A stretch of DNA of 64,000 nt from positions 59,664,001 to 59,728,000 of the forward strand of contig OX031057.1 in assembly GCA_943736015.1 (NCBI GenBank), given 5' to 3'. The position numbers were made by a program, and so were the translations under genes. Source of the DNA: Tridacna crocea (lineage: Eukaryota > Mollusca > Bivalvia > Cardiida > Cardiidae). Below the pieces are notes generated by a model, which saw only the letters and a list, made by a program, of their open reading frames with translations, was not told the origin of the DNA and ran no database searches. Of the stretch, positions 4,117 through 10,100 are shown in pieces (within the stretch, counting starts at the first letter, position 1; the number at the start of each line of letters is the position of its first letter).

Positions 4117-7100
4117 GTATGTTAAATGCTTTATATACCTTTGTAACAGACCATTGAGCATAAAACTGCAAAATTTGGTCTCAGTCCCTATTGGAGCCTT
4201 TAAAGATTTGCCAATGTATATTGATAGTGAGATCGAAACGAATAATCAAAGTGCTGAAACTACTGATTGGTTGGAGCAAGTGGAAAGTGCCTAAAGCAAT
4301 TTGAATTTAATCACGAACTGTCTAGTTAAAAAGTTAAAGAATAGTGCTAATACTCTGCATGAGAATTCGGTAAAATTAATTGGAAAATTTCTTTCTGTTT
4401 CACGTGTTCTTATTTAAAATTTCCTCCCGCCAACAAAAATCTTTTGTTTTGAATATATTTTCTCTGGTATTTTCTCGGTAAATGTAGAAACTGATCCCTT
4501 TCAATTTCTATTTTGCATCACGGATGAATAGCTCGTAAGGTGTAAGGCGATTCTGAGGGGTGTGTCGTTTCAGGTCAATTAGAAACGGCAGTTGCAGTTC
4601 CAGCAAACCAGAGACAGCGAATAGCGCGCATTTATATGCATGATGTCGAGAGTGGTTGCAGTTTTCATGCAAAAGTCTGAAACGTGGTTACTAAAGCTAG
4701 GCGCCGTTGGTCCATAGCTAAAAACGATTCAAAATAAGCTAGATTAATTTTGCATACTTTTTTTTAAATCTTTGAATTCATTGAGTCCACAATCACCAAC
4801 CATTCTTTACCAAACTATTAGTTTTGCTGTAGAGAAATTTCTAAGAAAGGGAGGCAGCATCTGACATTTGACCAGTCCAAATTACGTTAATTTCAAAATC
4901 TACAATTAGACATAGAATGAAATTAAGAATTGTCGGGATCCAAGAGGTCACGCTCATTTCTCCCCAGATCGTTTATTGATTTTTCTGTGATTCTTTTTCC
5001 GTAGATTCAAGGGTTTTTACGACAACGTGATTGTATGTGTGATTTTCTTGTTTCCTAGGTTACTCACTGGCATTCCCCTCAATTTTATGCCTATTATCCA
5101 ACTGCCAACTCCTTTCCGGCAATAGTGGCCGATATTCTTAGTGATGCTATCGGCTGTATCGGATTTACTTGGGTATATGAATGCTATAAGTAACATGTAA
5201 ACTGGGTTTTTTGTTGTCTCGTAGTAGATAGGCCATGCTCTGGCAAAAAGGGGCTTAATGTCAAGCAAGTCATCATATAATTGGCCTACAAGATGCCAAA
5301 AGGGGCATTCGGACATTTGCGTAAAGTGTCGTCTCGGATCAGCCTGCGCAGTCCGCGCAAGCTAATCCGAGACGGCTCTTTACGACTACATTAGATGTTG
5401 TTTCATAGTATTTTACAAAATTACAAAAAAAAATTAAAAAGTATTTTACAAATAAAAGAAAATTATATAAAAAACGGATGGTGTCGTTTCAGATAAGCCA
5501 GCGCGGAATGCGAAGGCTTATTTGAGACGACACTTTACGCATCTGTCCTAATGTCCTTTTTCGCGTGTTGTACACCATATTTAAGGACCCAGTCAGTTTT
5601 TGAAGTTGCATTAAACCTCCTTTTCAGAGAGCATGAATCAAATATAATTAACCCAGGCCGGATAACTGTGTAACAGGGTAGTTAATATGTTGTGTTGAAA
5701 TTATTTCGATAGAGAACATCAATTTATGAACGCATTGTAACATACTCAAATACCGCTATTGAAAGCTTTCTAGCATCACTTTTTGTGCATTAAACCGTTA
5801 TGGCAGGGACATTTTTCTCTATCTTATCGATTCCATACTTATACAACCTTTTGCAATTCTGATCATTTGACATTAATAATAAAACCAAACCATAAATTTC
5901 TTAACTAACCTGATGTGATATTGTTGTTCTAAACGAAATAAGCCAGTGTAATTATAACTTGGTTAAAAAAAAAAAAACGGTATCATTTAAGGGTAACATC
6001 GGCTTTCCTGTTATTATCGATCTGTAAAAAAAATGCCATCAGGTAATTGTTATACAATATATTTGAATAAACTCTTCCAAACATTGTTAAGTTACATAGT
6101 TAGTCTGGGTGAATAATAGTTTGACATGCATAGTTTCATATGCTTATATTCTTCTTTTCTCTTAACTGTTTTATATGCAAAAAATGTTCTTTTCTTTTTA
6201 TATTGATAGTGCATTTTTCTCTTCTGTTTTTTGTTTACCTGAGTATTCTATAGTAATGCATACTCGTCGTCCTTGTCATCTGTTTGTAGTGAATTATGAG
6301 AAATTGCTTGCCATCTATGGAACATTTGATTTTTCTGTATGTTGGAAGGATTCTTCTGCATGCGGCATTATAATGATCCATTGGTCATTTCTATTGACAT
6401 AATTTTAACAATTTCGAGCCATGTTTGTGGCAAAATGCATCTGCAAAAAGTATCCACCCAGATCAGCCTGGGCACTCTGCGCAGGCTTATCTGGGTCGAA
6501 ACTATTTGCTTTTCGTGAGTTTTTGTATATCAAAACAACTTTGCCCTCAGATCCAGTCGAGCTTTAGACTAAATGGCCTGCGACACGCGAAAAGATCACT
6601 CGGACATTTGCGTAAAGTGTCGTCTCGGATCAGCCTGCGCAGTCTGCGCAGGCTAATCCGAGACGACACTTTACGACAACATTAGATTTTGTGCTACAGT
6701 AAACTTTCGCTCAACAGAAAATTACATAGAAACGGAAAGGGTCGTTTCAGATTAGCCTGCGCGGAATGCGTAAGCTAATCCGAATCGACACTTTACGCAA
6801 ATGTCCGAATGCCCCTTTTCGCGTGTTGCAAGCCAATTATATATCTCTTACCATAGAGATGTTTTGCTGGGTATAACGCATTGCTGAGATGCATTTAACC
6901 CCCTTTTGCCAGAGCATGGCTCATTAGACTTTCTCCTGTTTTGTAGAACATATGCCATGCAATGTGCGAAAAGAGGCATTCGGATATTTGCGTAAATTGT
7001 CGTCTCGGATTAGCCTGCACAGTCCGCGCTGGCTAATCTAAAACGACACTTCCCGTTTTTTATCTAATTTTCTGTTTTCCGCTGGTCTACTGTAGCATAA

Positions 7101-10100
7101 AATCTATCATTATATTGCAAAGAAATTTCTCGTGATCTGATTGGATAATATGCCCCGAACATATATATACATCATGCACACTGGCAAAACCAACGTAACG
7201 GCAGTTTCCCTTTCGGGAGCCCCGTATACATGACTACACTATCAACACAACATCTAAAATGGCGTCGTCGATCAAGATTAACATCAAAATCATGCACCTC
7301 GCTGCACGTCTTGGCATGTATTACTAAGGTTTCAGTGACGTCAGCTCTCAGTGACGTCAGTTTACATTGAATTGGGGCACTTAGAAGGGAAATTCTAAAC
7401 TTTGCAGTGTAGTAAATTCGTTGTACGGTCAGGTAGCAGGGCGACATGATTCACCACAGCCGTGAACAAGTTTCCAAGTCCCATGCCACCTGACCGTACA
7501 ACTAATATCGTGGTCGTAATGTGCCGTCTCGGATAAGCATGCGCGGACTGCGCAGGCTCATCCGAGACGACACTTTACGCAAATGCCCGAATGCCCCTTT
7601 CTGCATATCGCAGGCCATATTACATTTCTTTGATGTCAAAGTTCTTTAGTGCTAATTATATTACGTTGTTTTACATTAATCCTTTGTTGTTGCTTGATTT
7701 TGTACATTATTAAGGTGGCTCACTGGCAGCATCCTAGTTTCCATGCCTATTTCTCCGCCCTCAATTCCTATCCGAGTATACTAGCAGATGTTTTATCAGA
7801 TGGTATCGGTAACATTGGATTTACTTGGGTAAGGCTCTAAAAGTTCATAAATTCACCAAATACTTTTGTCCCGATAAGGGGTGAGGGTGATGGTATTCTA
7901 AATCAGTTATTTCTCTTCTTTACCCTATGTTGTGGGTACTCATTAGAATCGTCTCGTTGAGACGATTCTAATGAGTACCCACAACATAGGGTTTGGTGCA
8001 TAATATTTAATATTTTTTATTAAAATCAAAATTACTCCCTCTATCTGGAGTTCTTTGGATCTACCCATCTTCATTACAAATCATTGCTTGCTGTTTTGAA
8101 AATAAAAATCTAAAAAACTGACTCATGATATAGCGATTACGTACAAACTTTAAATTTGAGAGATAAGTTAAAAGCTAAATAAAAACAAAAAAAATCTGAT
8201 ATTGGCAAAAAAATGTCGATTTTAGGGAGCCTGACAGATTATTTTTCGTTTCATTTTAGTAGAAGTAGTACTTTAACTAGTTGTAGTTGTTGTTGTTTTT
8301 CTTGTTGTTTTCCCCATTTATTGTAAAATATTCTTTTCATTTATTATTTCCTGTAGCTGAGTACCTGTATGTCGTCGGTTTACTTCAAAAACCTGGTAAC
8401 TACATTTTTTTAAAGCTGTAGTTATGAGGTTTTTGAAGTAAACTGACGATATAGTTTTCGTCCTGCAGCTGACAGCTTTTGGAAACAACTGTGAAAAAAC
8501 GGATTACATACGACTACACAATGATTTATTAGTTTTTTTACCGTTTTCGAACAAAATGTCATTCATTTGCAATTTTTTTTATCTTAAAATCTGTAGGTAC
8601 AAGGGAAAAGGAATATTATTGTGTGGTACATTTCCTGGCATCACTTCGGTCTTACTCGATATTAGATTCTTCGGTCTTACTTGATATCAAAATTTTCGGT
8701 CTTACTCGATATCAAAATTATCTGTCTTACTCGATATCAAATGCTTCGGCCTTACGGGATATCAAATTCTTCGGTCTTACGCGATATCAAATTCTTCGGT
8801 CGTACGCGATATCAAATTCTTCGGTCTTACACTCGATATCAAATTCTTCGGTCCTACTCGATATCAAATCCTCTCTCACTCCTTGAATCAAATATAAACA
8901 CCAAGCAAGTTACTGTAATATGATATTCCGTTAACCCTTATCCTACTATATACTTGTACTTAAAATTAAATTTTCAATTCGATATTAATAACCCAAATAT
9001 TGCTGGTTCAAAGTTATATGTCTTGGGAATAATATCTTCTTATCGGACAGTGTAGATCAAGATCAGACTGCACGTTCTGTGTAGTCTGATCTTGATCTAC
9101 ACTGTCCGCAAATGGTCAGCAAGTCGTGCTTAGCAGCGAAAAGGTTAATTACTCCAATTTTCATAAATTCATTTTTACGAGAAAATGTACAAAGGCTTTG
9201 TGTTACTATCCATACATGCATTATCAGAGGATACCTTTTATCTATAAAAGTTAAAAAAAAAACCAAAAGCTTTTCACAAATGTACAACATATATGTGTAA
9301 AAAAGTTTATAACATGTTTCTAACAAAGGTATGATTGCTTGCATTTCTTTACATCTATTGCTACACTTTTACCATAATTTTCTATGTTTTACTATATGTT
9401 ACTAAAAGTTTTAGCATTTAATTTTTTCTTCAAAGAGGTTAGATAACTTTAGCTGTTGACATATGGGCTTCGCACATGAACGATCTTACGAGTGCATAAC
9501 ACTAATACTGGTTTATAATACAATGCCATAAGTTAAGCCCTGGGTCTGTATTCACTAACCATTCTTGAGAATATTCTTTGTCTTATTCTACATGATGTTC
9601 TACATTTGAAAGTATCACAGCTTCTAATTGGCTAAACCAAATGGTTTAGCCAAACAGAAGTTGTTTTATTTTCAAGTGTAGAAAATTCTGTAGAAAAAGA
9701 CTGAGACTGTTCTTAAAAATGATTAGAGAATACGAGTCAAGGTTGCCATTTCAGTCTCTAAAGAGCACCGGGAAATGCGTTTTTATCGATATATAAAACA
9801 GAGATATTACTAGTATATAATGTTATTTCAGATGTTTCTTTGCTACACTTTTATTACCTTTTTAACTATTAATATACTGCTATATCTATTACTAAAAAAG
9901 TTGTAAATCGTATAATTTTATTGTAGGCCTCCAGTCCGGCCTGTACTGAGTTAGAAGTGGTTGTGATGGACTGGTTAGGAAAACTTCTTAATCTCCCGGA
10001 AGAATTTTTATTTTGTTCTGGGGGCACCGGGGGTGGAGTAATACAGGTAAGACTCTGAGGCAAATACAGCAAATACAGTAAAGCTACATGAAAATATTGA

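Follow-up and report, generated by a model that had tools for sequence, protein, structure and literature searches.

Can one bivalve gene make two aromatic amino acid decarboxylases by exchanging a single exon? The question is raised by a stretch of 64,000 nucleotides (the window) from Tridacna crocea (GCA_943736015.1, contig OX031057.1, positions 59,664,001 to 59,728,000 of the forward strand), in which we rebuilt from sequence an AADC/DDC gene that runs from an ATG at 3916 to a stop codon at 22718 and has 12 coding exons per transcript. An earlier note on this DNA had proposed that exon 2 of the gene exists in two intact versions, called here 2a and 2b, of which a transcript would use one or the other. 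We found the duplication as described, with its coordinates, 114-bp length, phase 0-0, openness, AG/GT sites and 23/38 identity all reproduced, and the rebuilt gene encodes an intact product of 475 amino acids with 2a or 2b alike, as the note had also stated. The two exons are probably an old pair that selection has kept and that yields two decarboxylase isoforms; the splicing of 2b, its mutual exclusion with 2a and a changed activity are what we infer from the gene sequence.

A duplicated exon in a bivalve AADC gene

The features of the gene, in window positions, are as follows.

3916..4116, + strand: coding exon 1, residues 1-67, common to both isoforms; donor gtatgt; from residue 1 onward it aligns to the AADC chains 3k40 and 3rbf
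5059..5172, + strand: exon 2a, residues 68-105, of the usual AADC type (H72, P81, T82, C100); 35/38 residues identical to exon 2a of Mya arenaria
5173..7714, + strand: intron between 2a and 2b, 2542 bp, with several palindromic repeats resembling mobile elements
7715..7828, + strand: exon 2b, residues 68-105, of an alternative type (Q72, S81, A82, N100); counterpart in the Mya model P0001
9927..10046, + strand: coding exon 3, phase 0-0; acceptor for either 2a or 2b
10826..10960, + strand: coding exon 4
11898..12041, + strand: coding exon 5, with His192
12711..12777, + strand: coding exon 6, with Thr246
13460..13554, + strand: coding exon 7, with Asp271 and Ala273
16120..16187, + strand: coding exon 8, with His302 and Lys303, which binds pyridoxal phosphate (PLP)
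17196..17286, + strand: coding exon 9
17860..17958, + strand: coding exon 10
21652..21753, + strand: coding exon 11
22527..22718, + strand: coding exon 12, including the stop codon

Exons 2a and 2b are each 114 bp long, open, flanked by AG and GT and of phase 0 at both ends, as are all of exons 1 to 5, and 23 of their 38 residues are identical. At the nucleotide level 75 of 114 positions agree (25, 29 and 21 of 38 by codon position). The borders read ...tttcctag / gtatat for 2a and ...attattaag / gtaagg for 2b, and a tblastn search of the window with 2a matched 2b at E = 2e-15. When the whole protein was searched against the window in the same way, at E up to 1, no second copy of any other exon was found; each of them has one place, which bears out the earlier claim that they are single. 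The 20-100 bp adjoining 2a and 2b showed no ungapped similarity (25-37% identity). Their wider flanks have dispersed repeats in common, up to 86% over 128 bp, which we read as mobile elements outside the duplicated unit. In layout the pair matches mutually exclusive exons: the two are adjacent and homologous, agree in length and phase, and have splice sites that could be used. Chance likeness of 2b was ruled out by the E value within the window and by the counterpart in Mya, and a second gene was rejected because the window has no other duplicated exon. We also rejected, as a matter of judgement, an assembly artefact or an allele: the copies differ at 39/114 bases and lie 2.5 kb apart.

The encoded protein matched the Pyridoxal_deC profile (PF00282) over its whole length (1-375 of 375), at 529 bits in the 2a form and 523 bits in the 2b form. 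The PLP lysine K303, His192, Thr246, Asp271 and His302 are all present, and they are found in both isoforms because all of them lie outside exon 2. The best solved relatives of the 2b form were the AADC chains 3k40 and 3rbf, which we take to be the Drosophila and human enzymes. A quick tree of 39 proteins, built without exon 2, placed the gene in a bivalve AADC set comprising Mactra, Mya, Dreissena and one further sequence, and not with HDC or TDC (Shimodaira-Hasegawa-like approximate likelihood ratio test, SH-aLRT, 99). Among the best 120 of 7997 scored relatives the closest was from Mya, at 73%. An NCBIfam search gave matches solely far below the cut-offs.

Exon 2 residues and the substrate pocket

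The clam protein follows the numbering of 3rbf through exon 2, whose residues 68-105 comprise catalytic loop1 and the start of loop2 (residues 66-84 and 100-110, respectively, as delimited in PMC8003434). It has been reported that the catechol ring of carbidopa contacts Ile101 of the partner subunit and that its hydroxyls bond the PLP phosphate and Thr82 (PMC8003434); contacts of Thr82, Phe103', Tyr79 and Phe80 have also been described (PMC3285636). Exon 2b retains Trp71, Tyr79, Ile101, Gly102 and Phe103 and has Phe80 where 2a has Tyr80. Relative to 2a it carries the changes T69A, H72Q, P81S, T82A and C100N, and the catechol-binding position 82 is Thr with 2a and Ala with 2b. In published mutants, T82A raised the Km for dihydroxyphenylalanine (DOPA) from 2.2 to 5.6 mM and that for 5-hydroxytryptophan (5-HTP) from 0.4 to 3.5 mM (PMC6411801).

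We then counted residues at these positions in 225 of 227 fetched proteins (P0001 was omitted by choice and P0192 was not matched by the pattern). Exon 2b has one residue unseen at its position (S75) and four rare ones (seen three times or fewer), and in Mya 2b the unseen residues number two (R83, I100), as do the rare ones. No unseen or rare residue occurs in 2a of either species, Mya 2a being itself in the set. The rows were sorted by hand into 82 HDC, 6 TDC and 107 AADC, with about 30 left ungrouped, and the group counts are partly circular, since many HDC rows carry no source name and were assigned by how their exon 2 looks. Among the TDC rows P0185 alone is named TDC; P0187 and P0191 group with it in the tree built without exon 2 (SH-aLRT 95), and the other three were placed by exon 2. 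With that reservation, Q72 is found in 81/82 HDC rows and in 6/6 TDC rows, and A82 in 82/82 HDC rows. H72 is found in 91/107 AADC rows, as is P81-T82 (91/107). Only 3/107 AADC rows lack C100, and the two of them with Q72 are bivalve (P0124 and P0128).

Both isoforms would have the same PLP-binding and catalytic core and would differ at residues 68-105, where the mobile loop1 and the start of loop2 should form one wall of each subunit's substrate pocket as well as a patch that extends into the site of the partner subunit. The 2a form would be an ordinary DOPA/5-HTP decarboxylase. Isoform 2b would keep the aromatic packing residues and lack the Thr82 hydroxyl that binds the catechol 4-OH; because of this loss, and because it has the Q72/A82 pair usual in HDC, it should bind catechols less strongly and differ in preference or regulation. 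The safest forecast is that the 2b isoform would still function as an enzyme, with a reduced affinity for catechols and changed loop1 dynamics, and a new substrate is possible.

The exon pair in Mya arenaria and other bivalves

We searched for relatives with residues 62-112 of the 2b protein and examined the best 120 of 237 matches. The top match, P0001, is a 'DDC-like protein' from Mya arenaria; it scored 121 bits, far ahead of the second-best match at 83. In P0001 a 2a-type segment is followed directly by a 2b-type segment, MTHWQSPHFHAYYPARISYPATIADILSDSLGIIGFTW, and then by exon 3, with the junction exactly at the exon border. Both copies are therefore encoded in a second species, Mya arenaria only, as a predicted protein. 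The Mya and window genes are orthologous and have the same 2a-2b order; their shared exons already differ by 20% in protein, and their 2a exons agree at 35/38 residues.

A search with the Mya 2b segment returned four proteins (P0001, Solemya P0124, P0035 and P0080) and no further tandem model, in a set of 90% clusters that would hide 2a/2b isoforms. The AADC model P0124 of Solemya velum has exon 2 residues of the 2b type (Q72, A82, A100). The Dreissena polymorpha paralogue P0128 has Q72, T82 and G100, and compared with P0023 it is 88% identical outside exon 2 and 27/38 within it. It is as if, in Solemya P0124 and Dreissena P0128, gene models had picked, or gene copies had kept, different members of an ancestral pair. 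These exon 2 residues hint that the 2b type may be older than the split between Mya and the window lineage.

How much selection the pair has felt was addressed by simulating neutral evolution along the 2b branch, with 5000 runs per branch length. An identity of at least 23/38 was kept in 76% of runs at 0.2 substitutions/site, 22% at 0.3, 2.5% at 0.4 and 0.2% at 0.5, and in none at 0.7 and 1.0. By the Nei-Gojobori method (NG86), 2a and 2b differ by dN 0.35 and dS 0.98. Since the share of dS that falls on the 2b branch is not fixed, this test of constraint within the gene is suggestive and not decisive. The Mya comparison would be the stronger evidence of constraint if the pair arose once. The earlier description of the duplication as old and retained thus holds in that Mya arenaria encodes 2a-2b, and in that 23/38 lies above neutral decay for a 2b branch of 0.5 or more; it does not hold on the latter ground for a branch of 0.3 or less.

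Paralogues in the same genome

Genome-wide searches covered 1.05 Gb in 31 contigs, and the counts of places are lower bounds. The PF00282 profile gave at least 36 matches. Exon 2b found at least five exon-2-like places, and the Mya 2b query led to the same five. Two of them are 2a and 2b themselves, and the others lie singly in three paralogues. By the best of six queries these paralogues are an HDC (P0027), a TDC-like (P0185) and a fourth, AADC-like gene (P0035). Exon 2 of each is 114 bp long, of phase 0 and found once, and two versions occur solely in the AADC gene. The borders of exon 2 must be old, because the HDC, TDC-like and fourth AADC-like genes carry the same 114-bp, phase-0 exon. 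This animal encodes HDC and a TDC-like enzyme in genes of their own, so their activities need not come from isoform 2b. Two further regions of the genome match weakly and look like glutamate- or sulfinate-type decarboxylases. The fourth AADC-family gene lies at C12:11508001-11568000 and has the loop1 motif HGYFAAG, its exon 2 resembling that of P0210.

Splicing and origin of the pair

The explanation that we favour, and that we consider reasonably probable, is that exon 2 of this bivalve AADC/DDC gene was duplicated in tandem long ago and that selection has kept both copies. Splicing would include 2a or 2b, normally one per transcript, and so give two isoforms of differing pocket. A number of observations pull the other way, and they are set out in this section together with the competing explanations on which they bear.

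As regards activity, T82A alone gave no tyrosine activity (PMC6411801), and AADC deficiency in humans is caused by other replacements of Thr69, His72 and Pro81 (PMC8003434). Given the latter, 2b, which is changed at positions 69, 72 and 81, could be a poor enzyme.

As regards exclusion, the inclusion of both exons or of neither (228 or 0 bp) preserves the frame, so exclusion needs a regulator. At 2542 bp, the distance between the exons exceeds what steric exclusion would allow, and every splice site is of the ordinary GT-AG kind. We considered a frame or steric basis for exclusion and found none in the anatomy: out-of-frame combinations, short spacing and a mix of U2 and U12 sites are absent here, all sites being GT-AG with no U12 scan made. 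Such features are not required of all members of the class. Mutual exclusion is thus suggested by homology and equal length and not by anatomy. An alternative that we regard as unlikely, yet worth keeping in view, is that both exons are used, not strictly singly, 2b being a low-level cassette and transcripts containing 2a, 2b, both or neither. All four combinations are frame-neutral, the Mya model P0001 contains both exons, and human DDC isoform 2 skips an exon 3 of equal length (PMC7697000). However, a protein with loop1 doubled in tandem, or with no loop1 at all, would very probably have no functional active site, and 2a and 2b replace each other residue for residue.

Splice sites were scored with weight matrices built from 35 acceptors and 34 donors of the gene and its three paralogues, all with AG/GT exactly at the projected border. 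Among acceptors, that of 2a ranked 30th of 36 with a score of 7.4 and that of 2b (AAG) 34th of 36 with 4.4; among donors, that of 2a ranked 31st of 35 with 4.6 and that of 2b 21st of 35 with 7.3. The region contains 273 AGs, real sites included; 35 of them equal or exceed the 2b acceptor in score, and three the 2a acceptor. The sites of both exons are below average, the 2b acceptor most, and these strengths fit regulated exons.

The weak 2b acceptor would also suit a relic, that is, an old duplicate formerly used, now little spliced and decaying. The unseen and rare residues, present in 2b of both species and missing from 2a, point the same way, and so does a second Mya model of the same gene, P0035, presumably a RefSeq entry, which is identical to P0001 where the two overlap and has the 2a segment alone. 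The 90% cluster of P0035 lists one member, and hence no 2b isoform is seen there. P0001 itself is faulty: exons 6, 7 and 10, an 11-residue stretch and one Trp are missing from it. Annotation of the published Mya genome drew on MAKER, SNAP and RNA-seq assemblies (PMC10663159), and P0001 presumably derives from that work; the model is a record of the coding capacity of Mya DNA for both segments, not of a transcript. Against a relic, 2b is open, has usable borders and is recognisable in two lineages whose shared exons differ by 20%, and neutral decay over 0.5 or more substitutions/site would have erased its likeness to 2a. We consider this explanation very improbable.

The origin of 2b raises two further alternatives. 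The 2b exons of the window and Mya agree at 23/38 residues, the same as window 2b with its own 2a, and Mya 2b has more residues in common with window 2a (25/38). In a free tree of exon 2 (50 rows, 38 columns, bootstrap not settled), window 2b fell within the TDC/HDC set (98/89) and Mya 2b paired with Solemya among the AADCs (97/90). None of five groupings was rejected by approximately unbiased (AU) tests (p 0.34-0.66). With both 2b exons forced into one group the likelihood was 4 above that of the free tree (p 0.56), and with 2b forced to join the TDC rows it was 5 above (p 0.66); with window 2a and 2b forced together it was 10 below. Grouping 2a with 2b within species gave p 0.34 and 0.47. 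The tree search was imperfect, since three forced groupings beat the free tree, and a tree of 38 residues cannot settle whether the 2b exons of the two species had one origin or two.

Two independent duplications of exon 2, one in the window lineage and one in the Mya lineage, with each 2b gaining Q72 and A82, would account for the low 2b-2b identity, for the separation of the two 2b exons in the free tree and for the fact that the within-species groupings were not rejected. Speaking for a single origin are the same order, the exact same border and three joint departures from 2a (Q72, A82 and loss of C100), together with the gain in likelihood when the 2b exons are united, which is not decisive, and the loss when window 2a and 2b are. 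We regard two duplications as rather unlikely.

The other alternative is that 2b came from a paralogue with a TDC-type exon 2, by conversion or insertion, and not from 2a. Within its genome, 2b is indeed most similar to the TDC-like exon (27/38 residues, 78/114 nucleotides), ahead of 2a (23/38, 75/114); it reaches up to 29/38 with P0185 and P0169, and gains likelihood when grouped with the TDC rows. This gain is not decisive, however, and third codon positions, at 17/38 to TDC against 21/38 to 2a, gave no support to a recent conversion from TDC, which we rejected. Furthermore, Mya 2b does not resemble TDC overall, agreeing with the six TDC rows at no more than 24/38, and tandem duplication is the simpler event. 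We find a paralogous source quite improbable, and retain tandem duplication of exon 2 as the favoured origin.

The introns hold a number of repeats. Related palindromes crowd the 2a-2b intron at 5275-7620, with arms of up to 127 nt, and have the look of miniature mobile elements. In the 18 longest pairs, almost all of which lie within 5275-7620, the arms are 71-89% complementary, and similar stretches are visible by eye in other introns. The arms at 5282-5401 and 7498-7617 are 86% complementary over 120 nt. We did not read the long inverted repeats between 2a and 2b as docking sites, as they resemble repeats elsewhere in the window. Shortly 3' of exon 2b, at 7922-7992, lies a perfect 34-bp inverted repeat with a 3-nt loop. 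Intron 10 carries a 63-bp tandem array (18473-20847) in two opposed blocks, head to head, of 10 copies (18473-19091) and 28.5 copies (19093-20847), their opposite orientation being read from the consensus units.

Relation to known systems

The exon that is doubled in the clam equals in length an alternatively spliced 38-residue segment of human DDC, that of exon 3, which we take to be residues 68-105. Human DDC isoform 2, without exon 3, has 442 of 480 amino acids, 38 fewer, and the presence or absence of this exon is among the most frequent DDC splice variations (PMC7697000). Unlike the clam pair, the human exon is skipped and not exchanged for a homologous copy.

Exchange of this kind is known from tandem-duplicated exon substitutions as a class (PMC9741552), and mutually exclusive homologous exons have been described in, for example, myosin heavy chain (PMC3912159) and a Cav3 channel (PMC9694082). 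Like members of this class, the clam exons are homologous neighbours that match in length and phase, are old and would swap one homologous segment for another. They differ in that the protein is a PLP-dependent enzyme of neurotransmitter synthesis and in that the segment forms active-site loops. The main text of PMC9741552, as available, contains neither 'decarboxylase' nor 'DDC'. Within the family, 2b is like the HDC and TDC paralogues in having Q72, A82 and the same exon borders, and differs from them in that the rest of the window protein is AADC and that the paralogues show a single exon 2. It differs from Mya DDC in that 2b diverges at 15/38 residues and that P0035 has 2a only. Among the papers listed in searches of an open-access library, we found no mutually exclusive exon of AADC, HDC or TDC; within that scope this agrees with the earlier remark that none has been described in an AADC gene. 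The proposed exon swap is of a known kind, with no report found in that library for the AADC enzyme family.

In animals, dopamine and serotonin are products of AADC, and each AADC gene is usually taken to specify a single enzyme. A bolder proposal, which we put forward as doubtful, is that this one gene encodes two monoamine-synthesis enzymes whose substrate preferences would differ through a 38-residue pocket module, and that the switch between them is ancient in bivalves. If 2b is used, there would be a splicing switch over monoamine synthesis, acting through a loop whose point mutations cause human AADC deficiency. In addition, the pair would be a natural experiment on the loop1 and loop2 residues that set substrate choice in the AADC/HDC/TDC family, and one clam gene may yield two enzymes that differ in what each binds.

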